IMG/VR virus record: IMGVR_UViG_3300032323_002843
Coordinates: 1 to 64,000 of that record
Reading direction: 5' to 3' (one strand)
Length of the DNA stretch: 64,000 bases
Source: a virus
Below are positions 4,901 to 59,838 of this stretch, piece by piece; positions within the stretch are counted from its first letter, which is position 1; each line of letters begins with the position of its first letter. Both the position numbers and the translations under genes were made by a program. The notes under the pieces are model-generated. The model had not been told where the DNA came from, made no database searches, and saw only the letters and a list, made by a program, of their open reading frames with translations.

Positions 4901-7900
4901 CGCATTCTTTCAGAAGCAGCCATTGAATACGTAGCACCCCCTGCAAGTATACTTCCACTTGTATGGAAAGTAATTCCATCACTATAATACATTTTAATCA
5001 TAGATGAAATCCATCCACTATTAACAACATCAACTTGGTTATTAACTGAATTGCTTGCTCTTACGTTATGACCAAGAATGGTCATTTGTCCTGAAAGGGT
5101 TTGGCTTAAAAATCCATAACTGGAGACATTTAATCCTTGCGGACCAGTAGCTAAGGATGTTGCAGAAACAACACCAATAACTTCTAATTTATTGCTTGGC
5201 GATGTAGTACCTATACCAATGTTGCCTCCAGTTAATATTGTAAATCTAGATCCAATTCCTGATTCTATTATCCCAAAAGCTCCAGCTGGTACGTTACTAG
5301 CACCTGTTGGGGATTCTATTTGCCATTGTGAAGTGGAATTAGTTAATAATATTTGGGCTCTAGAAGTACCTGTTACTCTAAAACCAGCATCTGAACCTAA
5401 AACATGTAAAGTATTTAGTGGGTTTGTGGTTCCTATACCAACCAATCCACTAGCACTAACATATAACGCATTTACTGCAGATGCTCCATCTACTTCAAAA
5501 ACACCTCCGACTGTGCCTGAAACATGGAGACGAGTTGTTGGAGTTGTAGTGCCTATACCAACGTTACCTCCACGCGCATTTAATAGTAGATTATTATACG
5601 AAGTACCATTTACCATGGCTTGAATAAACCCTACATCAGTTGCAGTATTGAATCCAAAACTTAAAAGTTTATTTGTATTGGTAGCTCCTTGTAGAGTAAA
5701 TTGACCAAATGAACCAAACTCTGCAGTTGTTGTAGCGTCTTGTACAACAGACAATCTAGCAGGAGGATTTGTAGTGCCTATACCAACATTACCACCAGCA
5801 GTGATGCGCATAGTTTCACTTGATGTACTTCCTGCTGGGTATATTGCCAGGTATGCACTGGATCCGGATGCACCAACAATAGTTGGGACTCCAGCTCCAT
5901 ATGTATTTCCCCAACTAAGATTATATGTATTTCTTATAACTATACTTCCAAAAACATCTAGTGTATCTTTTGGCGATGTAGTGCCTATACCTACGTTACC
6001 GTTTGGAAATATAACCCTACCTTGATTAGCAGCATTATTAACAGCAAGTTGCATCATAGGTAACGCATCTATTTCAATTTCTAAACTTTTACCATTAGTA
6101 AAAAATGTATTTGAATAGTTTTGATAAAAATTTGTTGCTCCATAATCAAATTTAGATAAATTTAAAAGTAAATCTTTTGTAGCTGATTGTAATCCTCTAA
6201 TTTCTAATTTACCTGTTGGACTTGTAGTACCTATACCTACGTTACCTCCATCTAATATAGTCATTGATGTATCAAACGTACCACCACCACTCCATGAACT
6301 ACCACCACCAAAAAACAAGGTACCATTTGCCGCATATATTACAGCAGGGTTATTTGCTCCACCACTGTCTTGATTACCTAATAAAATAGCTGATGCTCCT
6401 GATGTACCTGTAACAGATACGCGAGCTGAATTTGCAAATACTTCTAAATGTTCTGTAGGGGATGTAGTACCTATACCTACGTTACCAAGTGCGGTAATTG
6501 TCATTCTAGTACTTTGTGTAGTAGTACCTGAAGCAGTTCTAAGTTTTATTTCTCCATTGTTTCCTGAAAATATATTTGTACTGAAATTTCCACTATCGTA
6601 TTGTGTCATATTAATACCATAGAAATCTCCTGTACTTGAATATAAATGAAAAGATTTTCCTGTAACATTCCCAAAATCTAAAGCAACTACAGGACTTGTA
6701 GTTCCAATCCCCACATTCCCCCCACTTGTTATGCGCATACGTTCGGCATTGTTAGTGTAGAACTGCATAGCTAAAGCTGAAACCGTGTATATGTAAGGAC
6801 CAATATTATTAGTACCAAAGAATGAAGTTCCCGTTGTGTTTTGAGCAATAAAATAAGCATCTGCTGAACTATCTGTATTTTGTACTCTTATTGCATTTGC
6901 TCCTGCTTTAACTACATCTAATAAATGCGCAGGACTTGTAGTGCCTATACCAACATTACCTCCATCAAAATATGAAGATCCAGTACTTTGAAGTCTAAAT
7001 CCTATAGCATTTGAAAGACCACTTGGTTTATAACCAATAACTGTTCCTCCACCTCCACTATCATCTCTAGATAATACTAAGACTCTATTTTGATCATTAT
7101 TAGTATTAATTTTACTAATAATAACACCATTACCATTAGTAGCACCAATAGCAACATCACCTCCCCAATCATTAGTTAACGTACCTACAGTTAATAGATT
7201 ACCTGATGTGCCTCCTATTTGTAGTTTGCCTATTGGAGATGTAGTGCCTATACCAACATTAGCGGCAAAATAGGCTAAATTACTTTTAAAATAAGCCATA
7301 TTAGTACCATTACTATAAAAGTACATAATATCACTATCATCATATCCTCTTATATATGTGCCATTAGAATAGCTATAAGCTCCCCAAAATATAGATCCAC
7401 CATCTGTTAATTGTACATCACCGGATCCTTGTACAAATAATGATACTCCTGAACCGTTGGATACTCCGTTATTAACATAAAGATTTCCTGATATATGGAG
7501 TTTGTAGGAGGGTGATGTAGTGCCTATACCAACATTACCACCATTAAAGATAGACGCTCCTGACGAGCGTATAGCTATTGTAGTACTTCCTGCTGCTGTA
7601 CTAGCATATAAATCAGCATCTATTCCACCAGCAGCATAAGCATGTATATTACCAGCAACGTGGAATTTTTCATTTGGTGATGTAGTGCCTATACCAACAT
7701 TTCCCGAAGCATTTATGACATATCTATAAGTAGTTGCAGTTCTATCATAAAAATAAAATACACCATCATTTCCACCTATAAAATCATATTCTCTACCTGA
7801 ACCTCCTGTTGATTTGAATTTAATTCTAGCTTCAGAATCAATAGTATAAATTGATCCTCTTACATCTAATTTTTCTAATGGGGATGTAGTACCTATACCA

Positions 7901-11700: not shown

Positions 11701-14700
11701 CCAACATTACCATCATTCTTAATTCTTATAGCCTCAGTGGTATTATTTGTTAAGAATTGAACATCACTATTTTCATAGTTTTGAAATCTTAAAACATTAC
11801 TATTATATCCTATTCTTAATCCATCTGTAGCTGTTGCTCCTGTTACTGAGTCTGTAATTCTGATATATCCAAGACCATCTGAAGAGCCATGAACATGAAG
11901 TACATTAGCTGGAGTTGTAGTGCCTATACCAACATTGCCATTACTTCCACTAATTAGCATTCTAATAGATCCACTAGTTTCAAAAGCAAGATCTTGAACG
12001 TCATTAGTACCTAATAATGCTTGAGCACCAAAACTATTTCCTCCTTGAATATAAACGTTTGTTGCTGTTGGAGCGAATGACGCTGATACTGCGTTTGTAG
12101 CGAACGAAGCACTAACAGCAGTTGATGCAAACGAAGCTGAAGTAGCATTATCTGCTCTTGAGGCGGTTCCTAATAAAGAACCAGTAATTCCAGTTCCTAC
12201 TACGTTTAATGATCCTGTTATACTAACACTACCAGTAAACTGGTGAGTATTGCTCATTAAACTACCGAATCTAGTTGATCCAGTTACAAAGTCAGTAGAC
12301 GATGTAATTGTTTGAGCAACAATTGTTTGAGCCGTTAAAGTGCCTCTAACGGTAAAGTTATCAGCGCTTGATGCTGTAAATGATGTGTTTGCTTGAGTTG
12401 CAAATGATGCTGAAATAGCATTTGTTGCGAACGAAGCACTTACTGCTGTTGTTGCAAATGAAGCAGATACTGCTGTAGATGAGAACGATGCTGATGTAGC
12501 ATTATCCGCTCTTGAAGCCGTTCCTAGTAAAGAACCAGTGAATGAAGTTGCTGTTGTACTTCCGCTTATGTTAAGTGAACCTGTTACTGTGTGAGTATCG
12601 GTGATTATGCTACCGATATTAACACCAGTTGGTGTTACTTCGAATTCACGAGCACTACCTGTTACTACAGTTAGGGAGCCTGTGATTTGTGTGTTGCCAC
12701 TAAATCTTGCAGTACCATTTACGTCAAACCTAAAACCTGCGTTAGTTTGACTATTTATAGCTACGTTACCATTATTAAAAATATTTAATCTTGGTGTATA
12801 TACTTGACTATTACTATTTGAACCAAAAACCAATGATAAAGTATCAACGTCTTTATCCCATATCATTCCTAAATCATATTGAAAACTATCTTGTGCAAAT
12901 AAATAAGCTGGTTTTGCTCCGGCAACGTTTGCAGTTCCTATAACTATTCTACTTACGTTACCATTTCTTTGTATTGCTCCTGCTGCATTTGTAGCTATAG
13001 CAAAATTATTAGAACCAAAAGTAATTGCATCATGAGTAAATCCAAACCTACTAGCATTACTTGAATTTATATAAGCATTTGCAACAGGTCCTACTCTTAA
13101 AGCAGCATTAAATACCCCCGTAAACGAACCAGTATTAAATGTAGGGTTAATATCTAATCCTACTAATACATCATTGTTTGCTGATGCTGTTAAAGCTGTG
13201 TTTATTAACTGACCCCTTGCTATTGCGCTTGATGCAGTTTCTGAGCCACCTAATGTTAATTTAGTTGCAGTACCTAATGTGGTTGTTCCTATTGCTATAT
13301 CGCCTTCAAAATAAGACCTATTACCTGATTGAGCATATATATCCCAATTACCACTAACACTGGTTTCTGCAGCATTATTAAATAATATACCGACATTAGC
13401 TACGCTACCTGCCGTTAAATTAGCTATTCTTAAAGCAATTTGTCTACTTACTGCACCACTACCTCCCTTAAATACATCTCTATAATCATAACCATTAAAA
13501 TTTGATATTGTTCCTGTACCTGTTACTGCACTTCCAACAGAATAAGCATTTGCTGTTGATGTTGTATTAGCACTAACATTTACTGCTGAGTTAAATCCTG
13601 TCATAGTTACAGCAGTAGATGGATTGTTTATGTCTGATTGTATACCGTTAACATTACCTGTATTTGTTGATGAAACAGTTGCAATGCTACGAATACCATA
13701 CATCTGACCCGAACTACTATTTACAGTATTAGAATTTACTATCAAGCTAGTATCACCATTTACAGCAGGTGCAGCATTTATTGTTGTAACCCCCTGTACT
13801 CTTGCACTACCACTTACATCTAACCTAAAAGCACTAGATCCAGTAATTCCAATTCCAACGTTACCAAAAATGGTATGGTTAGAACCAGTTACTAATAAGC
13901 TACCAGTAAATGTCTGAGTATTAGCTAAACTATTACCAAATATATTAGATCCACTAGAATAAACAGTGCTTGAAGTTATTGTTTGAGCAATAATTGTTTG
14001 AGCAGTTAAAGTGCCTCTAACAGTAAAGTTATCGGCTGAAGATGCTGTTTGTGCTGTAGTTGTAAGTGAAGCAGTAGCAGCATAAGAAGCACTTGTTGCT
14101 GTTGCTGCATTTCCACTAATAGAAGCACTAATAAATGATTTATTTTCCCATTTAGCGGCAGTTGTATCATAAACTAATGCTTGTCCGCTTAGAGGACCTG
14201 ATATTAATACATCAGATAAGCCTGCTAAAGTTGTTGTTACTACTGATCCTCCACCACCTGATCCTCCTACTTGTCTAAATAAACCTCCAGGTTGGATATT
14301 GAATGTAGCATTATTAGTAAAATCAGCATCATATCTTGCAACAATAGCTCCTAAATAAATTGCATTTGCTGCAGTGTTTGGTGCTTCAACAAACGGTTCA
14401 TAAGGTATGTTTGATGTTGCATCTGTTTGTGTTGCATACACAGCATTACCGTAATAAACAACTATTGCTTTTGCTACTGAATTTGGAAAATAAAATACAC
14501 GTTGAATCGACCATCTGTTTTGGAAAATACCTGTTGGTACAGGTGTTAATACACCGTTGTTTGAATATTGTGATGGATCGATTGTTGTGTAACCAACCCC
14601 TCCATTTGTATCATATACCCAAGTAGAGCCTGATTGTCTGTATCTGAATATTTTAGATACATTAGTACCATTATCAGTGGCGTAGGATGGATTATTTGGA

Positions 14701-15821
14701 TCTACAGGATAGTTAGAACCAGGTGAATAAGCAGTACCGCTTGCTACTATTAAACTACCTGTTGAAGATCCACTAGGTGCTAAGGTATATCCTGATAATT
14801 TTAAAGGTCCAAATGCTCTATTAAATATATTTTGTTGTTGTTCAAAACCATATGCTACAGAAGGTTGTGTTTTAACACCGTTAATTGTAGATCCGTTTTG
14901 AAACAATACAACACCTATATTAATTTCTGTATCAAACTGTCCAGCAGCATATGGTGTACCTTGTTGGTAAATATTACCGGTCGAATCAATAGATACAAAG
15001 GCTTGTTGGTAGGATGCCGTAAGTGGTGCAATACTAGCTGATAAATTACCCCAGTTTAAATATTGAATAGTGGGGTATGGATTATCAGTTAAACTAGCGT
15101 TTAAATTTACAATAATACCACTACCACTACTAACTTGATATGTAGTAGATCCAGTAACAGCTGTAATTAAACCTCCATTTAATAAACCAGTATATAAGTT
15201 ACCTTCTAACCAACGTAAACGAGTTGTATTGGTGTATCCTTTACTATTTTGAGAGAAATATAAGTCATTTGTAGATCCACTTACAAAAATGTAAGAAGCA
15301 GATACTGAAGTATCTATATTTGTTGTTACAGGATCAAATCTATGGTATCCTGTTTGTCTAATATCACCAAATATTTGTACTGATGCTGTAGTAGCTGCTT
15401 GAGATCCTGAAATTATAATGCTACCAGATAATGTTGTATTACCAGTTAATGTATTGTTTCCTACTTGAGTAGTAGAACCACTTACTAATAATGAACCTGT
15501 AATTGTAGTTGATGAATTACGGAAGTTTGTTGTGCCAAATATATTAGTAGATCCACTAATATCAACACTGCCACTTAGAATAGTATTTCCTCTTAATGTG
15601 TTTGAACCACTAGTAAATAAGCTTCCAGTTACTGTTTGAGTACCTATAAATGTATTTGAACCAGTAGTAGCAAATGTACTACTGTCTTTACCATCTAATA
15701 AATCTGCATTATTAGAATAGCTAGAGGTTCCAAATAAAGAACCAGTTACACCATTAGTAACATTAAGAGAACTTAGGCTGGCGTCAGAGCCAGATACGAT
15801 GACTTTTTTCCAAGATGGCAT
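8787..15821 (-). CDS. Giant tail fibre with GVGIGTTSP repeats, no S74 domain
   Basis: A 2344-residue fibre that begins MPSWKKVIVSGSDASL, close to the start of the gene at 16201-17301 (MATWKKVIVSGSSAEL), which suggests a common attachment domain. Residues about 1-1150 carry TGSL, SASFA and TLTAQTIVAQTITSST modules with a non-repetitive stretch near 250-520. The C-terminal half has about twelve GNVGIGTTSP units. The end (VFFDFVAFSGSNQRAGTLIGN to AIKATYRTV) is a different, S74-free tip seen once in the window. It may bind a different receptor from its neighbour, or fold without a cleaved chaperone. Confidence 0.88.
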   Translation of the reverse strand: MPSWKKVIVSGSDASLSSLNVTNGVTGSLFGTSSYSNNADLLDGKDSSTFATTGSNTFIGTQTVTGSLFTSGSNTLRGNTILSGSVDISGSTNIFGTTNFRNSSTTITGSLLVSGSTTQVGNNTLTGNTTLSGSIIISGSQAATTASVQIFGDIRQTGYHRFDPVTTNIDTSVSASYIFVSGSTNDLYFSQNSKGYTNTTRLRWLEGNLYTGLLNGGLITAVTGSTTYQVSSGSGIIVNLNASLTDNPYPTIQYLNWGNLSASIAPLTASYQQAFVSIDSTGNIYQQGTPYAAGQFDTEINIGVVLFQNGSTINGVKTQPSVAYGFEQQQNIFNRAFGPLKLSGYTLAPSGSSTGSLIVASGTAYSPGSNYPVDPNNPSYATDNGTNVSKIFRYRQSGSTWVYDTNGGVGYTTIDPSQYSNNGVLTPVPTGIFQNRWSIQRVFYFPNSVAKAIVVYYGNAVYATQTDATSNIPYEPFVEAPNTAANAIYLGAIVARYDADFTNNATFNIQPGGLFRQVGGSGGGGSVVTTTLAGLSDVLISGPLSGQALVYDTTAAKWENKSFISASISGNAATATSASYAATASLTTTAQTASSADNFTVRGTLTAQTIIAQTITSSTVYSSGSNIFGNSLANTQTFTGSLLVTGSNHTIFGNVGIGITGSSAFRLDVSGSARVQGVTTINAAPAVNGDTSLIVNSNTVNSSSGQMYGIRSIATVSSTNTGNVNGIQSDINNPSTAVTMTGFNSAVNVSANTTSTANAYSVGSAVTGTGTISNFNGYDYRDVFKGGSGAVSRQIALRIANLTAGSVANVGILFNNAAETSVSGNWDIYAQSGNRSYFEGDIAIGTTTLGTATKLTLGGSETASSAIARGQLINTALTASANNDVLVGLDINPTFNTGSFTGVFNAALRVGPVANAYINSSNASRFGFTHDAITFGSNNFAIATNAAGAIQRNGNVSRIVIGTANVAGAKPAYLFAQDSFQYDLGMIWDKDVDTLSLVFGSNSNSQVYTPRLNIFNNGNVAINSQTNAGFRFDVNGTARFSGNTQITGSLTVVTGSAREFEVTPTGVNIGSIITDTHTVTGSLNISGSTTATSFTGSLLGTASRADNATSASFSSTAVSASFATTAVSASFATNAISASFATQANTSFTASSADNFTVRGTLTAQTIVAQTITSSTDFVTGSTRFGSLMSNTHQFTGSVSITGSLNVVGTGITGSLLGTASRADNATSASFASTAVSASFATNAVSASFAPTATNVYIQGGNSFGAQALLGTNDVQDLAFETSGSIRMLISGSNGNVGIGTTTPANVLHVHGSSDGLGYIRITDSVTGATATDGLRIGYNSNVLRFQNYENSDVQFLTNNTTEAIRIKNDGNVGIGTTNPGFKLDIGYDTNNRSLVRLSSNAANRMAAVRFDGNNIESGYIGYEGGSEIVSGGVQGDLIIRNMLSGKDIILDVNAGSVGIGTTSPSVALDVVGSIRSTGTGLLSSIRINNTTSTTGKDWHLYSLNNGNFGLYNNTDGSYAYQITPSGSVGIGTTSPATTLHVNGTVSIGATSVSSEGNLFLGPKSTTEGGQIFFQAGTSYTSASMLDVFQNDANPYFRILRGTNTASDALVAQFNLHTRQFFLPAYTSTASFAGTATAYLAVNSSGDVITVAGSGGGSVSGGSTNYIARWASSTSLTTGSIFDNGTNVGIGSISPAYKLDVTGDIRATGAVYANANGAMYFRGGDDAELWDINVANTIGIYGQQDQGVASIKLGSGGGIISGRSGSIGIGTTSPTRTFQVNGYISSFDGTTNTEIINGGGVGYFGTSTNHPLALQTNNTERLRITSGGNVGIGTTSPATTLDVNGTGRFGSAATKLTTYSDSNYSGIFNGASLGSNESIYMGDARMFFFASGSERMRLTSTGLGIGTTVPAYALEVRTLSGGGISIVGDTNNEANILFGDTDSKVIGRITYDNSADFMRFWVNGSERMRITSGGSVGIGTTSPSATLDLYQSSGTTSIKMASAGIGSKTYLLTSQLIGVSNGGFGIQNQTDSRYELVINADGNVGIGTTSPNYKLTVVGSNGIGVTAGNGNQLYLNNTGQQYTQITFDHNSSGATKGGIWWDNTNSLFEMYAASGGGVTFHTNATERMRITSGGNVGIGTTSPQARLDVLGGVQAAIIRTSDASTFYTTYQVNTSTVVGYIGNGNGIVSGGGINTFGVRSESDLIFAAGGNAERMRITNNGNVGIGTTTPIAKLDVEGDFQLLNANYNSYSSSVSGTTTLATIPTSSYNGVFFDFVAFSGSNQRAGTLIGNWRSGNVQYTEYSSPDIGSTAAALTMSVALSGANALVQSVSAPGWAIKATYRTV
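9130..11930 (-). repeat. About 12 copies of GNVGIGTTSP-coding repeat in second giant fibre
   Basis: The same DNA unit as in the neighbouring gene. Three more degenerate units (for example GNVGIGITGSS and GDIAIGTTTL) lie further towards the N-terminus. Confidence 0.88.
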
Positions 15822-15853
15822 ACTATATTACAATTTATACTGTGGTTAGATAC

Positions 15854-15872
15854 ATACACTTATGCCGTGTAT
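15854..15872 (-). other. Inverted repeat in leader of giant fibre gene
   Basis: ATACAC and GTGTAT flank a 7-base loop in the 104-nt gap between 15821 and 15926. No coding potential is seen in the gap. Confidence 0.4.
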
Positions 15873-15909
15873 ATGCCTACTTCCTGTTAAGGCCTACAGT
15901 GTTGTGCAT

Positions 15910-15917
15910 ATAAATAT
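15910..15917 (-). promoter_or_regulatory. ATATTTAT motif, 88 nt before giant fibre ATG (15821)
   Basis: It is centred in the palindrome GCATATTTATATGC. Confidence 0.45.
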
Positions 15918-15925
15918 GCAATAAG

Positions 15926-16183
15926 TTATTGCTTGCCTGATTTCTTTAAGTACAGGTTCTGTAGCTTTATAATCATATTATAAAACATTTCTACCTGATG
16001 CCCTTTCAAATCAGCATTACCTAATACCTTAAGTAAAAACTCTAATTCAGATAATTCCAACTCATTGTTTGATTGAGGTTGGGGTGTTGGTTGGGGTGTT
16101 GGTTGGGGTTGTGGAATAAATTCTGTTTGTTCTTGTTGAACAGGATTTTGTCCTACTACTGTGTTTTTTGAAACAAATGCCAT
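15926..16183 (-). CDS. Small Gln/Pro-rich protein in fibre locus
   Basis: An 85-residue protein starting MAFVSKNTVVGQNPV. A linker of QPQPTPQPTPQPQ follows, then a helical end (LSELEFLLKVLGNADLKGHQVEMFYNMIIKLQNLY). I choose the ATG at 16183 over a GTG at 16204, because the GTG lies inside the preceding gene's stop region and adds only a short lysine-rich stretch. I do not recognise the family. A flexible linker plus a helical pair between fibre genes suggests a fibre assembly or hinge component, but this is inference. Confidence 0.6.
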   Translation of the reverse strand: MAFVSKNTVVGQNPVQQEQTEFIPQPQPTPQPTPQPQSNNELELSELEFLLKVLGNADLKGHQVEMFYNMIIKLQNLYLKKSGKQ

Positions 16184-16200
16184 AACTTTTTTAAAATTTA

Positions 16201-17301
16201 TCACGAGTAAATATAAATATCACCACCGTTTGTTAACCACATATTACCAGTTCCGTTAGTGCCTCCCCAAGTTGGAGCAGCAGATGGAGCAGATCCCTGA
16301 TTGATTTTAGCAGATACAACATATTCGTCAGCTGTTACTGATGTTGATGTACCTGCAACATCATACGCCATTGCCCATCTTCCATAGGTACCAGCTGATC
16401 CTGCTTCAATGAAGAATGCAGAGCCTACACCAGATGCATTGTATTGAGCAATGATACCAGAGTCTTGTAATGTATTAGATCCACTATTAATTAAAATAAA
16501 CTGATCTTTAACGTATAGGTTTGTTGAGTTAATAAATGATGCAGTACCGTTAACTGTTAAGTCACCTTGTACTATTAAATTATTATTAAAGGTTGAATTT
16601 CCTGTTACTTGTAAACCACCAGCTTGAATTACAGAACCAGTAGCGATAGTTACTTGATTAGCATCTTCACTTATAAAGCTATTTGCTAAACCTGTACCTG
16701 TCCATTTTGTATGGTAACCAGAAGTTAAAGCAGCAGCACCTGAAATTCCTAATGTTACTGCAACTGAACCATTATATGATGATACGCTACCAGATAAACC
16801 AGAAACAAAGGATAATGCTTGTCCTAAAGCACCAATAAATGAACCACTAAATGAGCCTGTTAAGCTTGAATTAGCACCTGTTAATTGAATTGAAGTAGCA
16901 CCTGTGATTGTAGTGCCATTATCAGTTAAACTAGAATCAACAAATTTACCAGCACTAGAATCCCATTTAGTAACAATATTGTTAGCTAATTGAGCAGCAC
17001 CAGAAACAGCAACGGTTGCGGTTGTAGAACCACTATAAAGGAAAGGAACAACACCTGTACCTTGTGTTAAAGCAGGTAATTCAGCAACACCTTTAAAAGA
17101 TCCACTGAAGGAACCAGTCATTGTTACACCAGTAGCACCAGTAGTTGCTACTATATTTCCTGTACCATTAATTGGGGTAGTTGATAAGTTCGAAACTGAA
17201 CCACCACCGATTACTACTGAACCTGAGGTAAGGTTATCTACTTTTAATGCGGCTAGTTCTGCACTACTACCTGATACTATGACTTTTTTCCAAGTTGCCA
17301 T
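16201..17301 (-). CDS. Tail fibre-like protein (366 aa)
   Basis: It begins MATWKKVIVSGSSAELAALKV, matching the N-terminus of the 2344-residue fibre. The middle holds repeated GSFSGSF, ALSFVSGLSGSVSSYNGSV and SGAAxLxxxYHTKW segments. The end (LYVKDQFILINSGSNTLQDSGI, then a Gly-rich tip ending WLTNGGDIYIYS) resembles short phage fibre or collar proteins. It has no GNVGIGTTSP copies and no S74 chaperone. It is probably a shorter fibre or adaptor that uses the same docking domain as its large neighbour. Its last codons contain an ATATTTAT motif used by the next gene. Confidence 0.75.
   Translation of the reverse strand: MATWKKVIVSGSSAELAALKVDNLTSGSVVIGGGSVSNLSTTPINGTGNIVATTGATGVTMTGSFSGSFKGVAELPALTQGTGVVPFLYSGSTTATVAVSGAAQLANNIVTKWDSSAGKFVDSSLTDNGTTITGATSIQLTGANSSLTGSFSGSFIGALGQALSFVSGLSGSVSSYNGSVAVTLGISGAAALTSGYHTKWTGTGLANSFISEDANQVTIATGSVIQAGGLQVTGNSTFNNNLIVQGDLTVNGTASFINSTNLYVKDQFILINSGSNTLQDSGIIAQYNASGVGSAFFIEAGSAGTYGRWAMAYDVAGTSTSVTADEYVVSAKINQGSAPSAAPTWGGTNGTGNMWLTNGGDIYIYS
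16213..16220 (-). promoter_or_regulatory. ATATTTAT motif, 29 nt before ATG at 16183
   Basis: It lies inside the last codons of the upstream fibre gene (DIYIYS) and so is partly constrained by coding. Confidence 0.35.
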
Positions 17302-48021: not shown

Positions 48022-49287
48022 CTATTGATATATTTCTTCGTGTTGTTTACCAAAATCTCTTAATAATACTCCTGCTTTAGCGTTTGCTTCATTTTCAATG
48101 TCACTTCCGGTTTTACCACTTTCGTAGCTAATACGGCCATCTTCGTCTTGTTTACGGTGTACTAATTCATGTGCTAATGTTCTTAATATATCACCCATGT
48201 TTCTGTTTCCGCAATACACCCATATTTTATTGCTATTCGGATCAAAATATCCAAAACTCCTCATTTCCTTCGCTTTAGCAGTATCATATGATAGAGCTAA
48301 GTTACGGGGAGGATTTTGAATTTCCAAGTTTTTAATAGCATACTTTATAAATTCACCAATGGTTGCAGTTTCGCTTTCGTTTAACTTACCTTCCATTAAT
48401 TTGGTTTGTTTAGGTTGACCTAAATTTAATGTTGCCATTAGTACTTTAGCTATTTTACCTGCTTTACGTAAAGTCTGGCCACCTTTAACTAAATGGTATT
48501 TGTCTTTATCGTAATTTAATATTAATGGTATTTCGCCATCACTATTTTCTTCTTTATTTTCTAGTTTATCTAAAATATCCTTAGATAATACAATCATATT
48601 TCCAGCAACAAAGGCATATAATACATCAGGAATAGGTACATTAAATTTATCTGCTGCTATTTCTATTTCGTGTCTTGCTTTATCAACGATAGCTTGATAA
48701 GCATCATCTACATTTTGATATTTTCTTTCTTCTAATGAAATTTCTTCACCTTTATCTTCTGCAGGTGGTAATTTTTTACCAATTGTATTTGCAAAATCAG
48801 TTAAATTAATTCCATCAGGTATAAATTGAGCAATAGCATCTGCATTATTTGATTGAATAGCATTTCTTAATCCTGTAGCATTTACAGCATCAACAGTACC
48901 TGCATCAAATACTTTTGCATTTGGATAATCCATACGTTTAAAACGGCTAGCATCATCTTTACCAAATGCAACTATAAAATTAGTATCAGGATTTTCTTTA
49001 ACTAAATTATAAGTTTCTCTAACAGGATTTTCTAAAGCAACTCTTATTTCAACATTGTTATCTAAAAGTGTTTTATATAATTCCCATACAGCAACACTTT
49101 CATCTGCAGTTACACCTTCACGAGTTTTAGGTGATACTAACACAACTACCTGATCAGCATTTTGTAATAGTTTTTTAACTACTTCAAAGTGACCCCTGTG
49201 TGGTGGTTTAAAAGCACCTGGGAAGACAGCTATTGTTTGCTTGTCTTGTTCAAGTAATGTGTTTGCTATGTATTGTCCTAAATTCAT
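48022..49287 (-). CDS. Nucleotidyltransferase (NMNAT-like) fused to HExxH metallopeptidase
   Basis: 421 residues in two parts. Residues 17-160 form a cytidylyltransferase-like domain: VFPGAFKPPHRGH (His30 and His33), and NATGLRNAI near 136-144 in place of ISxTxxR. This fold adds a nucleotide to small molecules such as NMN. Residues 300-420 contain an HExxH zinc peptidase motif (LAHELVH, His373-His377), with ENEANAKAG as the likely third ligand. The N-terminus (MNLGQYIANTLLEQDK) is another short helix. This combination is unusual. The start overlaps the kinase gene's stop by ATGA. Confidence 0.8.
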   Translation of the reverse strand: MNLGQYIANTLLEQDKQTIAVFPGAFKPPHRGHFEVVKKLLQNADQVVVLVSPKTREGVTADESVAVWELYKTLLDNNVEIRVALENPVRETYNLVKENPDTNFIVAFGKDDASRFKRMDYPNAKVFDAGTVDAVNATGLRNAIQSNNADAIAQFIPDGINLTDFANTIGKKLPPAEDKGEEISLEERKYQNVDDAYQAIVDKARHEIEIAADKFNVPIPDVLYAFVAGNMIVLSKDILDKLENKEENSDGEIPLILNYDKDKYHLVKGGQTLRKAGKIAKVLMATLNLGQPKQTKLMEGKLNESETATIGEFIKYAIKNLEIQNPPRNLALSYDTAKAKEMRSFGYFDPNSNKIWVYCGNRNMGDILRTLAHELVHRKQDEDGRISYESGKTGSDIENEANAKAGVLLRDFGKQHEEIYQ

Positions 49288-50051
49288 TTTAAAAAGCTAT
49301 TTACTTTATTTTTAGCATCATCTGTAGATGAAAACTCTGGAGTAGATTGGATTAATTGCTGAATACTGCTATTTAGAGCTTCAATTTCAGCTTTCTTTTT
49401 AGCTAATTCATCTGGTGTGTATTCTTTACCACTACCTTTAACTGTTTTAAAGAATCTTTCTTTTGCAATAGCAGGATCATATTCTAATTTACCTTTAGGA
49501 TCATTATTAATTAATACGAATTTATTACCAAACGCTTGTTCGTATGTACCAATATTACTATTTACACCAGCCCATGTTTTTAAAACAATAGATGGTGGTA
49601 ATGAACGACCTCCAGCTTTATCACGATCAGCATTACGTTGTAATGATGTGTAAGGTGAAACCCAAATCATGACCATCATTGTATCGTAGCCTAATTTTTC
49701 TAATTCGTCTTTTTTCTTTAATAAAGGTTTACTAGCAGCACCAGTACCATCAATAACAATGTTTTGTTTAGCAGCGGATAACTGTGCATATTTTTCTTTA
49801 GTAGCTTTTTGAGCTTGACCCATTAATTTGCCTGCTTGCGATAATTGATCCTGATCGAAATCTGCGACTTTTAAACCTAAACCTGCTGCTTTAAGTAATT
49901 CTTCATAGGTGTCATCGACATTAATTACAGTCAAATTTTTCGGTATTAATTGAGCAGAAGTGAATGTCTTACCAGATCCAGCAGGACCAGCCAGGAATAT
50001 AGCTTTTGGTTTGGATTGTATTTCTTTTAATAAATCTAGTAACTTGATCAT
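49284..50051 (-). CDS. P-loop kinase, zeta toxin/polynucleotide kinase-like
   Basis: 255 residues from the ATG at 50051 (MIKLLDLLKEIQSKPKAIFL); an upstream in-frame start would lie in a hairpin. Walker A is AGPAGSGKT (about 20-28). NVDDTYEELLKAAG gives the base-like Asp pair, VIDGTGAA follows, and RNADRDKAGGRSLP is a lid-like arginine region. This order fits zeta toxins (UDP-sugar kinases) and polynucleotide kinases. The N-terminal helix suggests it may be packaged. The true substrate is unknown. It overlaps the nucleotidyltransferase by four bases. Confidence 0.72.
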   Translation of the reverse strand: MIKLLDLLKEIQSKPKAIFLAGPAGSGKTFTSAQLIPKNLTVINVDDTYEELLKAAGLGLKVADFDQDQLSQAGKLMGQAQKATKEKYAQLSAAKQNIVIDGTGAASKPLLKKKDELEKLGYDTMMVMIWVSPYTSLQRNADRDKAGGRSLPPSIVLKTWAGVNSNIGTYEQAFGNKFVLINNDPKGKLEYDPAIAKERFFKTVKGSGKEYTPDELAKKKAEIEALNSSIQQLIQSTPEFSSTDDAKNKVNSFLK

Positions 50052-50063
50052 ATGTGAATATAA

Positions 50064-50094
50064 ATAGGTGACCTGGACGAGCCAAGCCACCTAT
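50064..50094 (-). terminator. Imperfect hairpin between lipoprotein and kinase genes
   Basis: ATAGGTGGCTTGG pairs with CCAGGTCACCTAT around CTCGT, about 13 bp with wobbles. It lies 13 nt before the kinase ATG and after an ATATTTAT motif. The T-run is poor, so it may act as a leader structure rather than a terminator. Confidence 0.5.
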
Positions 50095-50100
50095 AAATAT
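50093..50100 (-). promoter_or_regulatory. ATATTTAT motif, 41 nt before kinase ATG (50051)
   Basis: Coding strand: TACAAATATTTATAGGTGG, next to the hairpin at 50064-50094. Confidence 0.5.
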
Positions 50101-50113
50101 TTGTAGTTTTTAA

Positions 50114-51316
50114 TTATTGTCCCTTAACTGGGAAACGTGTCCATCCATTTATCCATGTTGGTTTAGATATAGTTTCCATTTCAGCTTTAGTATAGCTTAC
50201 TTCTTTGTTACCTTGTGATAATGCTTTTATTTTTATATCAGCAGCGGTAAACACTGTAGATGTAGATCTAAAGTTTAATAATGGGTCGAATGACTGTACT
50301 TCATTATTTTCAAACTTACTAATACCATCTTTATAAGCTTGTGCTGTTTCATTTGATTCAATACTAAATCCACCTTTTTGATATCCTAATATTTTAGAAT
50401 TAGTCATTGTAAACTGTGTTGCACGTCTCCATCTTAAACCTAGATTGTGGTTTGCTAATGAAGCAGCATCAAATGGTCCAATCAGTACCATACTATTTAA
50501 TTTAGGATGTGTAAATGGTTGAGCGGTTGAGCCTGTACCATCATTATCACATTCTATACCATTTCCAGCATCACCATTATCTACAAATTGTGGATCACGT
50601 TTTGAGATACTGTTTGTTATAGTTCCAGTATAACCAAAATCAAAATCATAATCATCATCTGCAGTAGCAAAAGCATATAAATTTTTAGCATTTACAGTAC
50701 CACCAAAAAATTCAAACGCATCATCGTTAGCATAAATAGTTTGAACATTCTCAATAATTGTTCCACTACCAACACCACCTAATGTTAATGCATTGATTTC
50801 GGAGTTTGGCATTGCTGCAATTCCAGCATATTCAATACGAATAAATTTTAAAACACCACTATTATCTAAATCATTAGTACCACCATAAGGACGACCAATA
50901 CCACCTTCGATAGTTGGTTCTGATGATCTGTTGGTTTTAGCACGGCCTAAAATTACAATACCACCCCAATCGCCAGGAGACCTCTCGCCGACGTTTTTGC
51001 CTGAGGTGAATATAATTGGTTTTGTAGCTGTACCTTCAGCTATAATTTGAGCCCCTCTTTCAATACACAGGGCACCTTTTTCAGCAATATCACTTATAAT
51101 AGTGGTACCTGGTTGGATGATAAGTTTAGCACCATCAGTTATGTAAACATATCCTTTTAAAGTCCATGTTTTGTCTGATGTTAATGTAATTGTTGTGTTA
51201 ATGTTACCGCTTAATGTTGTTGATGTAGGGACATTAATTGGTCCTTCACCTCCACCTAATTCTTTTTTGCAGGAAAATAGTCCAATGATAGCTAATAGTG
51301 TTAATAGCTTTTTCAT
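50114..51316 (-). CDS. Surface lipoprotein paired with TonB-dependent receptor
   Basis: 400 residues. A lipoprotein signal (MKKLLTLLAIIGLFSC) ends at Cys16, followed by KKELGGGEG, an acidic and Gly-rich stretch that could act as a surface-export signal in Bacteroidota. The body has parallel beta-helix features: GYVYITDGAKLIIQPGTTII, GALCIERGAQIIAEGT, PIIFTSGKNVGERSPGDWGG and later NSEINALTLGGVGSGTIIEN. Host genes of this type often sit next to a TonB receptor, as here. Its start overlaps the receptor's stop by ATGA, so the two are translated together. It may bind a ligand and pass it to the receptor. Confidence 0.8.
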   Translation of the reverse strand: MKKLLTLLAIIGLFSCKKELGGGEGPINVPTSTTLSGNINTTITLTSDKTWTLKGYVYITDGAKLIIQPGTTIISDIAEKGALCIERGAQIIAEGTATKPIIFTSGKNVGERSPGDWGGIVILGRAKTNRSSEPTIEGGIGRPYGGTNDLDNSGVLKFIRIEYAGIAAMPNSEINALTLGGVGSGTIIENVQTIYANDDAFEFFGGTVNAKNLYAFATADDDYDFDFGYTGTITNSISKRDPQFVDNGDAGNGIECDNDGTGSTAQPFTHPKLNSMVLIGPFDAASLANHNLGLRWRRATQFTMTNSKILGYQKGGFSIESNETAQAYKDGISKFENNEVQSFDPLLNFRSTSTVFTAADIKIKALSQGNKEVSYTKAEMETISKPTWINGWTRFPVKGQ

Positions 51317-53556
51317 AAGTTTAAGTTTAATGTTAATGAAATTATTTGTTCGTTGTTTGTTTTAATTAAATCACCTTTTGTTTTTTGGTAATAAATGGAT
51401 GGCTGCGCAAACACATCACTTATTGCCAGTTTAAGTTCACCTTTATTTATTTTATGTAAGTATACTACATCTAAAACGTTTCTAGAATTTTCAAATATAT
51501 CAGCATATCCTTGGAAACCAACTGCTGATATTCTATCTCCTACTCTATTATAAGTAATGTTTAATGTTTCTTTTTTCTTGTGTAAATTAATACCACCATT
51601 AATAACGTAATTAGATTGACCTTGCATTTGTCTATTTAATCCTTTTACATTTGAATTCATTAAGGATGTATTAGTATAAAAATCAAACCATCCATTTATT
51701 TTCTTACGAATTTCTATTTCAACACCATATAACACAGCAGATTCTGGGTTAGTGTAGGTTAGTAGTAAATTAGATGGTACTGATCCGTCTGCTACTATTT
51801 GTTCAATTGGTTTGATAAAATTTTTACCAAATAAACTTACAGATATATTTTCACCTGCTTTTGGATATAATTCCCATTTTAAATCTAAATTATATATGTC
51901 AGATTTTTCTAGATTAGGATTACCTAACAATTGTGCATTACGTACAAAATCATAATAAGCAAAATTAGCTACTTCTCTAAATTCAGGACGTGCTAATGTT
52001 TTACTTAATGAAAATCTATACTTTGTTTTTTCTAAATTGTAAGAAAGATTTAATGATGGAAGTGGATCTAAATACTTTCTATTTACATTTACTCTAGTAC
52101 CACTAAAGTCAGCTGTTTGTACATTAAATAAATTGTATTCTGTTCTTAATCCAGTATTTAATTTCCATTTACCAAAATCTTTATCATACATTACAAACCC
52201 ATTAGCTAAATCAAAATCAGCTGTGTATCTATCTGTATTATTAGTAATTTCATTTAACATATCAACAGCATCGTATCTGAATATTCTTGCTTGAAAGTTT
52301 CTTAAGCGTTTAACGTATCCACTTCCAACTTTAATATCACCAAAATCTTTACTAATGCTTCCATTAAAACTATTTTCATCCATTACACTCCAAAAACGAT
52401 ATGTATCTCTCCAAGCAACAGCATAAGGTTCATTTATACCTAATGATTTAGTGATTGGATTAACTCTATAGTCAGGTTGATCACGTAACATTAAATTATG
52501 TCCTAAATTAATATCCCATGTTTTAATTTTAGCATCAAACTGAGTGTTAATAGATGTTTTAATGATATTGTTTGAAGAATTACTTCTAACATTTTGTACA
52601 TTATCAAAATTATCACCATTACGAGTTAAATAAGATTCTTCAACTTGGTTATTAAATAATGTTTTTAAGCTATAACGATTAACTCCTAAATAAGTTATGT
52701 TTAATAATCCATTTAATGATTTTACATTAGTAAATGATGTGTCCTTATATTTGTAAGCTAATTCAGTTGATGATTGATAATCTTGTCTATCAATATAGTT
52801 TAATGAATATGAATTACGAGCTACAGAACTAAATAATACGTTCCAATTATTTTTCTTAACACCAAATGATAAAGCACCATTAGCATTAGGAATAGATATA
52901 AATTCTTTAGCTAATGGAGATGAAATTAACTTAGTATATGCTCTTTTATCTCCGTTTCCACTAATACGAAATTTGTATGTAGAAGGAAAATTAGATGGAA
53001 AATCAACACGTTTAACCAATTTAAAGTTTTGATTTGTAGATATTAATCCATATCCACTACCTAAACTTAAATTAAGAAATTTACTAGATACTTCTTTAGT
53101 TGATACTTGAATTAACCCACCAGCAAAATCACCTGGTAGATTAGCTGTAGATGATTTATTTACAACTATATTATCTATTAAACTAGAAGGTATAATGTCA
53201 AATGAAAATGCTCTACGGTCAGGTTCAGTAGAAGGAAGCAATGTTTTGTTTAACATTGCTAAATTGTAGCGATCAGCTAACCCTCTAACTAATACAAATT
53301 TATCGTTTTGTACCGTGACACCACTTACACGCTTTAAAGCATCACTAGCAGTTCTATCAGGTGTTTTTTTAATAAAATCAATTGATACACCGTCAGATAC
53401 AGCTAGATTATTACGAACAATGTTTATAACAGCAGCTTCAGTGGATTTTTTGCCTGTAGAACGAATTGTTACTTCAGACATTGTTTTATTAAATAAAGTA
53501 TCTTGGGTAAAACCAAAACCAGGACACAATAGTAATAGGACTAATATGTATTTCAT
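51313..53556 (-). CDS. TonB-dependent outer membrane receptor
   Basis: 747 residues. A signal peptide (MKYILVLLLLCPGFGF) is followed by a plug domain: VTIRSTGKKSTEAAVINIVR, TASDALKRVSGVTVQ, FVLVRGLADRYNLAMLNKTL and IDNIVVNKSSTANLPGDFAG. The rest is beta-barrel, with segments such as KYRFSLSKTLARPEFREVAN and NLDLKWELYPKAG. The N-terminal carboxypeptidase-like beta domain found in many Bacteroidota receptors is missing, and I see no clear TonB box. It probably inserts in the outer membrane of the infected cell. Roles could be nutrient uptake, blocking of superinfection, or a decoy. It looks complete. Confidence 0.85.
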   Translation of the reverse strand: MKYILVLLLLCPGFGFTQDTLFNKTMSEVTIRSTGKKSTEAAVINIVRNNLAVSDGVSIDFIKKTPDRTASDALKRVSGVTVQNDKFVLVRGLADRYNLAMLNKTLLPSTEPDRRAFSFDIIPSSLIDNIVVNKSSTANLPGDFAGGLIQVSTKEVSSKFLNLSLGSGYGLISTNQNFKLVKRVDFPSNFPSTYKFRISGNGDKRAYTKLISSPLAKEFISIPNANGALSFGVKKNNWNVLFSSVARNSYSLNYIDRQDYQSSTELAYKYKDTSFTNVKSLNGLLNITYLGVNRYSLKTLFNNQVEESYLTRNGDNFDNVQNVRSNSSNNIIKTSINTQFDAKIKTWDINLGHNLMLRDQPDYRVNPITKSLGINEPYAVAWRDTYRFWSVMDENSFNGSISKDFGDIKVGSGYVKRLRNFQARIFRYDAVDMLNEITNNTDRYTADFDLANGFVMYDKDFGKWKLNTGLRTEYNLFNVQTADFSGTRVNVNRKYLDPLPSLNLSYNLEKTKYRFSLSKTLARPEFREVANFAYYDFVRNAQLLGNPNLEKSDIYNLDLKWELYPKAGENISVSLFGKNFIKPIEQIVADGSVPSNLLLTYTNPESAVLYGVEIEIRKKINGWFDFYTNTSLMNSNVKGLNRQMQGQSNYVINGGINLHKKKETLNITYNRVGDRISAVGFQGYADIFENSRNVLDVVYLHKINKGELKLAISDVFAQPSIYYQKTKGDLIKTNNEQIISLTLNLNL

Positions 53557-53583
53557 TAAATGAATTTAATTCACTTATACGTA

Positions 53584-54369
53584 TTATTCTTTTATTTTAA
53601 CACTTGTTGGTAATAATTCCGTCATAGGTTTAAAATCTGGGTTTTCTAGTTTATATATTTCGTATATATTTTTAAACATTTTAAAATTAGTTTCAATTTC
53701 ATTTACGAACTTTAATTCCCATCCTTTACCTTGTATCTTTCCGTTCTTTCCTTCACCACGAGTATTTGCTTTAACCCATAAGATACCTGTGTGAGTTACT
53801 TTCTCATCGTGTGTTTCATTCCATGCTTGAGCATAAGCAGCTAATTGTAAATCATAAGACGTATGTAAACTGTTCGATGTCTTAAGATCTAGTAACCATA
53901 TGTTATCAAACATTCTAACAACTAAATCCGCTGTACCAGCATATTTGTGTTCGTCTGAGAATAAATGATATTCTGTTGCAATTAATTCTGGTTTATGTGT
54001 GTTCCAAAAATCAGCAAAACGTAAAATCATTTTCCAAACCTCAAGAGAGTACTTAGCACTCCCATCAGGATAAATCCAATTTATTTCTTCTCCATTTAAA
54101 AACGCATCTACAGCTGTGTGTACTTGAGTACCTTCACCTGCTGCTTTAGATGCAATAATATCACTATTATGTCCTACATCTTTCAACCAAGAATGGAAAA
54201 ATTGATTTTTAGGGAAATAATTTAAAACAGATGTTACGGATGGATAATATTCACCATTACGTCTGTAGAATCTACTGTCTAAAACATTAACTTGTTTATC
54301 CCCTTCAGCGTATTCAACAATACGTTTGATTTTAGGATCTTTGATAATGTTTACATTTCTTTCGATCAT
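53584..54369 (-). CDS. RecB/Cas4-like PD-(D/E)XK exonuclease
   Basis: 261 residues. The catalytic set is visible in order: His84 (TQVHTAV), Glu133 (ATEYHLFSDE), Asp148 (GTADLV), Asp161 with Lys163 (LDLKTS), and Gln175 with Tyr179 (QLAAY). This is the core of the RecB/AddB/Cas4 nuclease family. No iron-sulphur cysteines are seen. It is likely involved in recombination or replication fork processing. It is co-expressed with the primase gene through an ATGA overlap. Confidence 0.85.
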   Translation of the reverse strand: MIERNVNIIKDPKIKRIVEYAEGDKQVNVLDSRFYRRNGEYYPSVTSVLNYFPKNQFFHSWLKDVGHNSDIIASKAAGEGTQVHTAVDAFLNGEEINWIYPDGSAKYSLEVWKMILRFADFWNTHKPELIATEYHLFSDEHKYAGTADLVVRMFDNIWLLDLKTSNSLHTSYDLQLAAYAQAWNETHDEKVTHTGILWVKANTRGEGKNGKIQGKGWELKFVNEIETNFKMFKNIYEIYKLENPDFKPMTELLPTSVKIKE

Positions 54370-55307
54370 ATTAATTGTAATTTTTTCTCAAGCAAACTCT
54401 GTAAATTCAGAGGTTTTGTTTGCTCAATTGTGTTAAGAAATTGTTCAAAACCAATTTCATTAGCGTCTTTACCTTCCATTTCTACTAAATACACTTCTTT
54501 ACCATACGACATTAACTGTTCAGCTTGTTTTAAAGCATCTTTTCTAGCATCAGCATCTAAAGCAATATAAATACGATTAACAGAAGATTCGACTAATTTT
54601 TTCATTAGTTTATCATGTAATACTTTACCAAACAAAGGTATAACATTACGTTTGATAGTAAGTGCATCAAATATACCTTCAACAAGTATAATTGGTGCAT
54701 CCCAGTTTATATATAACTCCCATCCAATAACGTCTTTAGCGGATGTAGGAGGATTTTTATATTTTCTTAATGATGGTTCTTTGTAATCACGAGCAATAAA
54801 ATAATTTAGTTTACCTAAACTATCATAAGATGGAATAACAACACGGTATTCATATTTTCCTTCTTTACAAAAACCAATATTATATTTTATAACGTCGTTT
54901 TGTGTAATACCACGTTTTTTTAAAAATTTTAAAGCGTGTTTGGCTTCAATTTGAGCAATTTTATTTTCAACTTCGTCTGATAGTGAAATAAATTCTTTAG
55001 GTAATTCAAGAGCGCCTTGTGCAACGTGTTCTTCTTTTTTAGAAGGAACAATTAAAATATTTAATTCAGCTATTTTATTTTGTGGTGCTTTAATTTTCTT
55101 AAATAATGTAAGCAATGTTTTACCCTTAGCACCACATACCCAACAATGCCAGAAATTTTCACGTTTTGATGTTGTACGTAAACTAATTTCCATCTTATTT
55201 TTGTGATGAGTACAGAATGGACATTTAAAAGCATAATTGCCTTTACTAGTTGATTGTCCTTTACCTAGCACTGATTCGACTAGGAATAATAGAGCTGTAT
55301 TATCCAT
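54366..55307 (-). CDS. DNA primase, DnaG-type
   Basis: 313 residues. A zinc-binding N-terminus (CPFC at 29-32 and CWVC at 55-58) precedes a TOPRIM domain with the glutamate in LVEGIFDALTI (Glu210) and the acidic pair in IALDADARKDAL (Asp251, Asp253). T4 gp61-like primases are similar in size (342). It makes RNA primers for lagging-strand synthesis. The helicase is not in the window. The gene is joined to the RecB-like nuclease but lies within a late structural region, which is unusual for replication genes. Confidence 0.88.
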   Translation of the reverse strand: MDNTALLFLVESVLGKGQSTSKGNYAFKCPFCTHHKNKMEISLRTTSKRENFWHCWVCGAKGKTLLTLFKKIKAPQNKIAELNILIVPSKKEEHVAQGALELPKEFISLSDEVENKIAQIEAKHALKFLKKRGITQNDVIKYNIGFCKEGKYEYRVVIPSYDSLGKLNYFIARDYKEPSLRKYKNPPTSAKDVIGWELYINWDAPIILVEGIFDALTIKRNVIPLFGKVLHDKLMKKLVESSVNRIYIALDADARKDALKQAEQLMSYGKEVYLVEMEGKDANEIGFEQFLNTIEQTKPLNLQSLLEKKLQLI

Positions 55308-58464: not shown

Positions 58465-59838
58465 TTACGGACACAGTGTTGTAGCAACAATGAATCCACC
58501 ATTATCTACTTGGTAGCTGTTTGCACCAGTTCCTTGAGAGTACCATTGGTTACCTCCTATTATAGGAGTCACTCCACACTCACCATTTACATATAATCTT
58601 GTAGGAGTTAAAGCATTGTCAGTATCAAATAATGTTAAACTTCCTAAATGAGCACATGCAGTGGCATTAGAAGGGTATAAATATATTTGTTGACAAGCAG
58701 CTGTTGTGGTAGTTGTTGTTGTACTAGTAGTAGTTGTTGTAGTAGTAGTTGTTGTTGTAGTCGTAGTTGGTGGTGGTGTTGTAGTTGTTGTTGTTGTACT
58801 AGTTGTTGTTGTTGTTGTAGGTGGTGGTGTTGTAGTTGTTGTTGTTGTACTAGTTGTTGTTGTTGTAGTCGTAGAAGGTGCAGTTGTAGTAGTAGTTGTC
58901 GTACTAGTTGTTGGTGTTAATGTTGTTGTGGTTGTTGTTGTAGAAGTTGTTGTAGGGGCTGTTACAATAGCAGTAACTTTAGCCTTATTACTTCTTAAAG
59001 TAATAGGACAAGAACTAGCAACTTCAGCACTTATAGTATAGTAAATAGTATAAGTACCAACCATAGTAGTAGTTAACAAAACAGTACCGTTACTTCCTGT
59101 TGACCAATAAGCTAAATCAGAAGCACTACCTGATAGTAATATTGAACCTGTATTTAAGGTTCCACTTCTTCCATCATCATTAAGCGATGCTGAAATTGTT
59201 TTTGGAGAGTCTGTAGTTAAAAAACTTCCACTATCATTTTTAGCTAGTGGAGGTAGAGGAAACATTAATTGATAATCTTGATTAGTTATAATAGCTAATC
59301 CTTGAGCATAAAATATATTCCCAACATGAGTTTTACTTCCAGAGTAATCAAATAAATTTCCATAAGCATCATCTGTAATATTATATGCTGATGATGATAA
59401 TTGAAAATTGCCAGGAAGTACTTTATTACCAAAAACGCTTTGATTAATTGCTATTACACGAATCCCGTCCATTGCTCCTGTAGGGAAATTAACAATTAAA
59501 TTATCGTTATCATTGTAAATAAAATAAGAAGAAGTAGGACGTTGTTGAGAAGCAGACTGATAATTGTTTAGGGTAAACATTAACGAGCTTGTGTTTAACG
59601 AAGCTGTATATGTTTGATAAAACATTTGGTTAACTTGAGCGTAAACTAAACGCTCATATTCACCTTCAGTAACAGGATCATTATCGGCAGAAAAAGCTCC
59701 TGTAACGTTTGTGCCTTTATAAATAGTTAAATAGCCAGATGAAGTAGGGTATGGACAATAAGGTAAAGTCCATTGTTTATTAGCTTGGTTTGCTACAACT
59801 GTAACGTCTGATCTGCTTAACTGTTTGAATGAAGACAT
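58465..59838 (-). CDS. Virion protein with Thr-rich linker and C-terminal beta domain
   Basis: 457 residues. The N-terminal 230 residues (LSRSDVTVVANQANKQWTLP, VLPGNFQLSSSAYNITDDAY) are related to the protein at 59842-60855. The next part is Ig-like (KTISASLNDDGRSGTLNTGS). Residues about 290-378 are a run of Thr with Ser and Pro (TTTTPPPTTTTTTSTTTTTT), and a Cys-containing domain closes the protein (CQQIYLYPSNATACAHLGSL, ending GGFIVATTLCP). The Thr run is a likely extended linker and could be glycosylated by the GT genes next to it. The tip domain may bind a receptor. Confidence 0.75.
   Translation of the reverse strand: MSSFKQLSRSDVTVVANQANKQWTLPYCPYPTSSGYLTIYKGTNVTGAFSADNDPVTEGEYERLVYAQVNQMFYQTYTASLNTSSLMFTLNNYQSASQQRPTSSYFIYNDNDNLIVNFPTGAMDGIRVIAINQSVFGNKVLPGNFQLSSSAYNITDDAYGNLFDYSGSKTHVGNIFYAQGLAIITNQDYQLMFPLPPLAKNDSGSFLTTDSPKTISASLNDDGRSGTLNTGSILLSGSASDLAYWSTGSNGTVLLTTTMVGTYTIYYTISAEVASSCPITLRSNKAKVTAIVTAPTTTSTTTTTTTLTPTTSTTTTTTTAPSTTTTTTTSTTTTTTTPPPTTTTTTSTTTTTTTPPPTTTTTTTTTTTTTTSTTTTTTTAACQQIYLYPSNATACAHLGSLTLFDTDNALTPTRLYVNGECGVTPIIGGNQWYSQGTGANSYQVDNGGFIVATTLCP
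58704..58968 (-). repeat. Thr-codon repeat tract with ~51-bp tandem unit
   Basis: On the plus strand a run of GTT/GTA triplets with GGTGGTGGT and CTA marks. A unit of 48-51 bp (GGTGGTGGTGTTGTAGTTG and on) occurs twice in tandem with one triplet difference, which shows length change by slippage in frame. Confidence 0.85.

Follow-up and report, generated by a model that had tools for sequence, protein, structure and literature searches.

The virus record IMGVR_UViG_3300032323_002843 of IMG/VR carries, within its positions 1–64,000 (the stretch of 64,000 nucleotides analysed here, hereafter the window), a 747-amino-acid (aa) TonB-dependent receptor and a 400-aa beta-helix lipoprotein whose open reading frames (ORFs) overlap by 4 bp. 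We consider it likely that this pair is an outer-membrane acquisition module from the Pho regulon of Bacteroidota, which an ancestral T4-like phage took up and which then spread among such phages as a two-gene cassette. The computed evidence comprises homology, conserved pairing, purifying selection, an empty site in relatives, the phosphate neighbourhood of the host homologues and a phased Pho-type promoter shared with them. It is also probable, though we hold this with less assurance, that T4-like phages of Bacteroidota carry in it a self-contained phosphorus import module with a host-type Pho promoter, passed among phages and switched on by host PhoB in starved cells. The features of the pair in the window are as follows.

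51313–53556, minus strand: TonB-dependent outer-membrane receptor, 747 aa, with signal peptide, TonB box, plug and barrel and no N-terminal CarboxypepD_reg extension.
53461–53481, minus strand: TonB-box-like segment MSEVTIR, receptor residues 26–32, directly past the signal peptide.
50114–51316, minus strand: surface beta-helix lipoprotein, 400 aa, assigned from its structural model and 49–91% identity to phage and host homologues.
50633–50659, minus strand: acidic segment DDDYDFDFG, lipoprotein residues 220–228, most of them unchanged across 54 sequences from hosts and phages.
50423–50434, minus strand: RWRR, lipoprotein residues 295–298, with R295, R297 and R298 invariant in the 54 sequences.

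Pfam assigned Plug (residues 56–145) and OMP_b-brl_3 (residues 401–736) to the receptor, which AlphaFold modelled as a plugged beta-barrel (predicted local distance difference test (pLDDT) score 81), while the lipoprotein was modelled as a right-handed beta-helix (pLDDT 92.3) and has a readable lipobox, LFSC. Together with the ORFs, these results bear out the identities, coordinates and four-base overlap given in an original prediction made from the DNA letters and their translations. Translation of the two genes is presumably coupled through the overlap. A Pfam search of the lipoprotein returned no family match, including none to the SusD-like families PF07980 and PF14322, Foldseek of its model gave nothing significant (best E 0.017), and searches of the pair against PHROGs, NCBIfam and PDB sequences gave no functional match besides a sub-threshold hit of the receptor to TIGR01782 (TonB-Xanth-Caul). 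The invariant Asp and Arg residues of the lipoprotein are candidates for ligand binding, with DDDYDFDFG as part of a putative ligand site and the RWRR arginines as candidate anion-binding residues.

Foldseek of the receptor model retrieved solved TonB receptors (E down to 1e-25), a generic match in which siderophore, heme and cobalamin receptors came first. Uptake of another nutrient (an iron complex, cobalamin or an oligosaccharide, for example) would agree with that ranking, with the frequent carbohydrate activity of beta-helix proteins (the lipoprotein having no significant fold match) and with the carbohydrate uptake proposed for the TonB receptor of two megaphages (PMC9723777). We nevertheless regard it as rather unlikely, since the fold matches, at 9–14% identity, reflect the general barrel, there is no SusD partner, and both the gene neighbourhood and the promoter described below point to phosphate.

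Homologues of the pair in hosts (Chitinophagaceae and Aquirufa) sit amid phosphate genes, with at least one of PiT, DUF47, an OprP-type porin, PhoR, PhoB or a phosphatase near the pair at 18 of 40 host loci, many of which are incomplete. Pfam families at these loci include PHO4, PhoU_div, HisKA/HATPase, Response_reg with Trans_reg_C, Alk_phosphatase and Phosphodiest, together with Porin_O_P at a second Aquirufa locus; the porin label at the other host loci was given by similarity, and the names PhoR and PhoB by domains and context.

The regions upstream of the host receptors contain tandem repeats with an 11-bp period, and a promoter model trained on 32 promoters of host homologues gave the consensus gTAACATTngcgTAACAT. 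These repeats have the form of a Pho box, which consists of two 11-nt direct repeat units (Escherichia coli core CTGTCAT; PMC4415409), and are putative PhoB-binding sites. When the model was run on a further 498 genes from these host loci, its best matches included Aquirufa PiT, the lipoproteins themselves, OprP-type porins, a DUF47 gene, a phosphodiesterase and PhoB. Across two Aquirufa genomes, the three-unit pattern was found only before the receptor operon, partly by construction, and at one other, independent site, with 0 occurrences of a control pattern; in the 2.5-Mb Aquirufa genome G001, this second site precedes an operon of PHO4 and Porin_O_P (PiT/phosphate porin). Scored with the same host-trained model, the phage receptor upstreams reached a median of 5.2 versus −4.0 for the starts of 1510 other phage genes (Mann–Whitney P 5e-29), and 26 of 64 lay above the 99th percentile of the control. 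Measured from the −7 element (TAnnTTTG; PMC9723704), half-sites lie at 36, 25, 69, 14, 47 and 58 bp in hosts and at 36, 47, 58 and 25 bp in phages; in Aquirufa, the receptor and the PiT operon are each preceded by half-sites at 25, 36, 47 and 58 bp. Among 39 phage promoters, 36 have a half-site at 36 bp and 26 at 47 bp, in the phase of the hosts and of Aquirufa. This period-11 phase is followed by 96 of 109 host half-sites, 94 of 159 phage half-sites and 13 of 79 half-sites before other phage genes, with 0 of 300 shuffles reaching the host or the phage value. The preservation of half-site spacing despite sequence change argues for use of the phage promoter.

The pair is widespread among phages, with at least 115 IMG/VR relatives for the receptor and at least 124 for the lipoprotein (64–95% and 75–91% identical to the window proteins, respectively, among the matches listed). 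The 4-bp overlap is found at 68 of 70 distinct phage loci, whereas nearly all host homologues are separated by gaps of 1–291 bp. Gene order in these carriers is always receptor then lipoprotein, in many unrelated phage gene contexts, and T4 Gp23 is encoded on 15 of the 42 longer carrier contigs, including those of 162, 171, 181, 183, 209, 221 and 326 kb. The pair is accessory, as it is present in only one of 20 records sampled by capsid protein (most of them fragments) and absent from a 169-kb relative, L252. Three fecal records labelled as phage (MT835841, MT837092 and MT838075) were rejected as phage evidence, two being marked unverified and MT835841 (L204) reading as bacterial DNA. At positions 7850–10004 of contig L148, the receptor ORF is split into two overlapping frames (580 and 158 aa), which may be a genuine frameshift or an artefact of sequencing. 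At about ten phage loci, among them L010 (17103–17738), the pair is followed, after a few intervening genes, by a gene for a DNA/RNA non-specific endonuclease (Endonuclease_NS) that seems to have a signal peptide and could release phosphorus from extracellular DNA.

A quick IQ-TREE analysis of the lipoprotein (124 rows) placed all 76 distinct phage proteins, including that of the window, in a single clade (Shimodaira–Hasegawa approximate likelihood ratio test (SH-aLRT) value 97), sister to three Aquirufa genomes, with a support of 100 for the joint clade. Phage-type lipoproteins (73% identical) were found in 3 of 222 genomes searched in the Aquirufa family, the other matches listed being approximately 41–53% identical. 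The quick receptor tree placed Aquirufa inside the phages, beside the phage subclade whose receptors retain the N-terminal extension, and the approximately unbiased (AU) test on the receptor did not reject phage monophyly (P 0.25); one or two transfers between host and phage, in either direction, would fit these trees. Median pairwise ratios of nonsynonymous to synonymous substitution (dN/dS) of 0.147 for the receptor and 0.150 for the lipoprotein indicate purifying selection, and the comparison of the window with its relative L001 (dN 0.028, dS 0.314) indicates that the window copy is still under selection.

The absence of an N-terminal extension had been taken in the original prediction to suggest a trimmed, phage-adapted form. 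The window receptor does lack CarboxypepD_reg by Pfam, and the Aquirufa receptor has it, but among the phages this domain has come or gone several times, being present in 34 and absent from 31 of 65 phage receptors and requiring at least 8 changes on the quick receptor tree, so that approximately half of the copies keep it and the reading as trimmed and phage-adapted is half correct. We therefore treat the extension as variable rather than essential, and class the window, whose receptor is without it, as a variant of the Pho-regulon pair and not as a typical member. TonB receptors are common receptors of phages and colicins, and the repeated loss or exchange of the extension would fit superinfection exclusion or receptor replacement, in which the phage-encoded receptor and lipoprotein block or displace the host receptor used by competing phages or bacteriocins. 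This explanation is unlikely, as a decoy would need neither a conserved TonB box (64 phage receptors share the pattern [LM]-x-[E]-[VI]-x-[VI]), a plug and a putatively ligand-binding lipoprotein under strong purifying selection, nor a phosphate-starvation promoter at the exact spacing of the hosts. Nothing was found, with no test aimed at them, in favour of the other roles originally suggested, namely exclusion of phages or colicins and occupation of TonB.

Uptake of a limiting nutrient during infection, one of the roles originally suggested for the pair, is supported and can be narrowed, most likely to phosphorus, by the host neighbourhood, the promoter and work on related pairs (PMC8115612; PMC2996285). 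What we infer beyond the computed evidence is PhoB binding, transport, the identity of the ligand and a benefit during infection. The surface lipoprotein would capture a phosphorus compound (phosphate, a phosphoester or a nucleotide) or, like ElpS of Caulobacter, aid surface phosphatase activity, and the receptor would import the captured compound over the outer membrane with TonB energy. Uptake would go on during the shutdown of host gene expression, and we propose that phosphorus would, with this continued supply, not be limiting for phage DNA synthesis and assembly. As most carriers keep the host-type Pho promoter, host PhoB would turn the cassette on in starved cells, whereas in the window subclade it lies downstream of primase and exonuclease genes and would presumably be read with the phage replication genes. 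A different division of labour, in which an ElpS-like lipoprotein stimulates an extracellular phosphatase and the receptor is accessory, takes its support from the finding that overexpression of ElpS, seemingly no phosphatase itself, raises secreted alkaline phosphatase activity (PMC2996285); we judge it very unlikely, because the joining of both genes by the overlap at 68 of 70 loci and the retention of the TonB box suggest import as their common task.

Several points weigh against assigning the phage pair to phosphorus uptake under a Pho promoter. No phosphatase or PiT homologue was found near the phage pairs when host phosphate genes were searched there, and PstS (PF12849) occurs in 0 of 26 related carrier phage contigs, so the pair does not belong to a visible suite of phosphorus genes. 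The −7 pattern was relaxed to TAnnT[AT]TTG for the phages after inspection of their sequences, and, because the 39 phage promoters share a common ancestry, the P values overstate independence. The 27 bp directly before the window receptor hold no Pho box, and the window subclade is without that promoter. Finally, of the known systems compared below, the pair of Flavobacterium johnsoniae was compared by domains, fold and context, and the ElpS system by description. PhoH, present in 15 of the 26 contigs, was dropped as a phosphorus marker, being too common in phages to be diagnostic.

The window belongs to an 87.9-kb virus record that carries T4-type Gp23, portal and terminase, and the pair therefore does not lie in a host island. 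Its borders and flanking genes are as follows.

53557–53583, minus strand: upstream cassette border, the 27 bp between exonuclease and receptor, as defined against empty sites in L324 and L325; no Pho box.
50091–50113, minus strand: downstream cassette border, inside which the empty-site sequence resumes (AATATTTATAGGTGG...), holding the TATTTATA promoter-like element of the next gene.
53584–54369, minus strand: PD-(D/E)XK exonuclease flank, which directly precedes the kinase in cassette-free relatives.
49284–50090, minus strand: zeta-toxin/AAA_33-like P-loop kinase flank, on the other side of the empty site.

In close relatives the site is empty, the exonuclease being followed directly by the kinase in L324 (flanks 92% and 82% identical) and L325, while contig L001 has an identical gene order over both borders, with a receptor 95% and a lipoprotein 91% identical to those of the window, and several further contigs match the gene order upstream of the pair. 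An assembly chimera or recent host DNA confined to a single contig, either of which would have undone the original prediction, is next to impossible and indeed already refuted by these independent contigs and empty sites, by the more than 100 carriers, by Gp23 on carrier contigs and by a phylogeny that indicates long residence in phages. The placement of the pair among phage late genes proved only loosely right: the contig is that of a T4-like phage, but the pair is flanked by exonuclease and primase genes on its upstream side and by the gene of a P-loop kinase on the other, rather than by structural genes.

The primase gene lies one gene further upstream, beyond the exonuclease, and the window pair is probably co-transcribed with both. 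A Pho-box-like sequence, TGAACAATTTCTTAACAC, is found at 54430–54447 (minus strand), within the 3' end of the primase coding region and ahead of the exonuclease, receptor and lipoprotein genes. Its score is 10.6 in the window and 14.0 in both L001 and L148; relatives that have no cassette lack it, as do L003 and L074, which do carry the cassette, so that it may be chance coding sequence. We considered this weak site as a replacement promoter and keep it as a lead. Upstream of other phage genes in carrier contigs, TAAY occurs 33 bp from the TAnnT[AT]TTG element in 11 of 64 promoters, possibly representing a different class of regulated promoter or related copies. The TATTTATA element occurs 18 times on the coding (minus) strand of the window versus 5 times on the opposite strand, several copies lying just 5' of genes, and probably serves this T4-like phage as its late promoter. 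Adjoining the cassette is a variable region containing the kinase and a cytidylyltransferase-like protein (48022–49287), with lengths varying greatly in relatives (421–1358 aa). A 457-aa protein encoded at 58465–59838 contains long threonine runs (TTTTTT), which give rise to spurious valine-rich ORFs on the opposite strand.

In the open-access literature searched, no description was found of a T4-like phage cassette of this type, of the lipoprotein partner or of the Pho promoter, although absence there is no proof. Among known systems, the F. johnsoniae genes Fjoh_0545/0546 (PhoBR operon; PUSIV) are strongly induced when phosphate is depleted (8.0 and 9.9 in the transcript fold-change entries); Fjoh_0545 has Plug, OMP_b-brl_3 and CarboxypepD_reg, Fjoh_0546 is a pectin-lyase-fold lipoprotein, a second pair is formed by Fjoh_3857/3856, and the lipoproteins are reported to be distant relatives of a low-phosphate Caulobacter lipoprotein (PMC8115612). 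The phage pair shares with Fjoh_0545/0546 a receptor with Plug and OMP_b-brl_3, an adjacent downstream beta-helix lipoprotein and, in its host homologues, proximity to phoBR, PiT and an OprP-type porin, but differs in being phage-encoded, coupled by a 4-bp overlap and often without CarboxypepD_reg. The Caulobacter phosphate-starvation lipoprotein ElpS (cc0170), with homologues reported in Bacteroides and others, likewise lies beside a TonB receptor, Cc0171 (PMC2996285), and the sub-threshold TIGR01782 match of the phage receptor is a further likeness; unlike the phage pair, the ElpS system is alphaproteobacterial and non-phage, the release of ElpS follows a type II-dependent route, and cc0171 is reported not to be phosphate-regulated. 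The pair also resembles SusCD/PusCD in combining a TonB receptor with a surface lipoprotein, although its partner is a beta-helix protein and not SusD.

The original statement that no comparable system was known in T4-like phages needs qualifying, since both megaphage TonB receptors and cyanophage pstS are comparable. A TonB receptor ('SusC') was noted earlier in the megaphages Mar_Mega_1 and LR745206 and read as carbohydrate uptake (PMC9723777). LR745206 (L203; 634 kb) has, like the window, a TonB receptor with a lipoprotein beside it (13404–17244), but these are only 26% and 35% identical, respectively, to the window proteins and in reversed order, lipoprotein first, and are apparently an independent capture. 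A weak Pho-like site lies 72 bp before that lipoprotein.

In T4-like cyanophages, pstS and phoA are controlled by PhoB through the host PhoBR system, and PstS has been proposed to sustain replication in starved cells (PMC10976474). Our best reading is that the cassette would be the outer-membrane counterpart of cyanophage pstS, readable by host PhoB. Phage phosphorus genes have so far been mainly marine and cyanophage, acting inside the outer membrane, and, if this is true, the TonB-dependent step at the outer membrane would for the first time have a phage nutrient system whose nutrient is identified. A predicted Pho box is also described here for these Bacteroidota, together with its probable use by phages, and both the control of phages by host phosphate status and the cargo of the poorly understood phosphate-starvation pairs of TonB receptor and lipoprotein are now directly testable. 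Like pstS, the cassette would be a host-derived phosphate-acquisition gene set that is patchily distributed in T4-like phages and exchanged between them, with host PhoB as its likely reader; unlike pstS, it encodes a Bacteroidota-type module for the TonB-driven outer-membrane step rather than a periplasmic binding protein, and its Pho box is predicted from sequence. The cassette suggests that phages of Bacteroidota evolved a solution of the same kind, placed at the TonB-driven step in the outer membrane.

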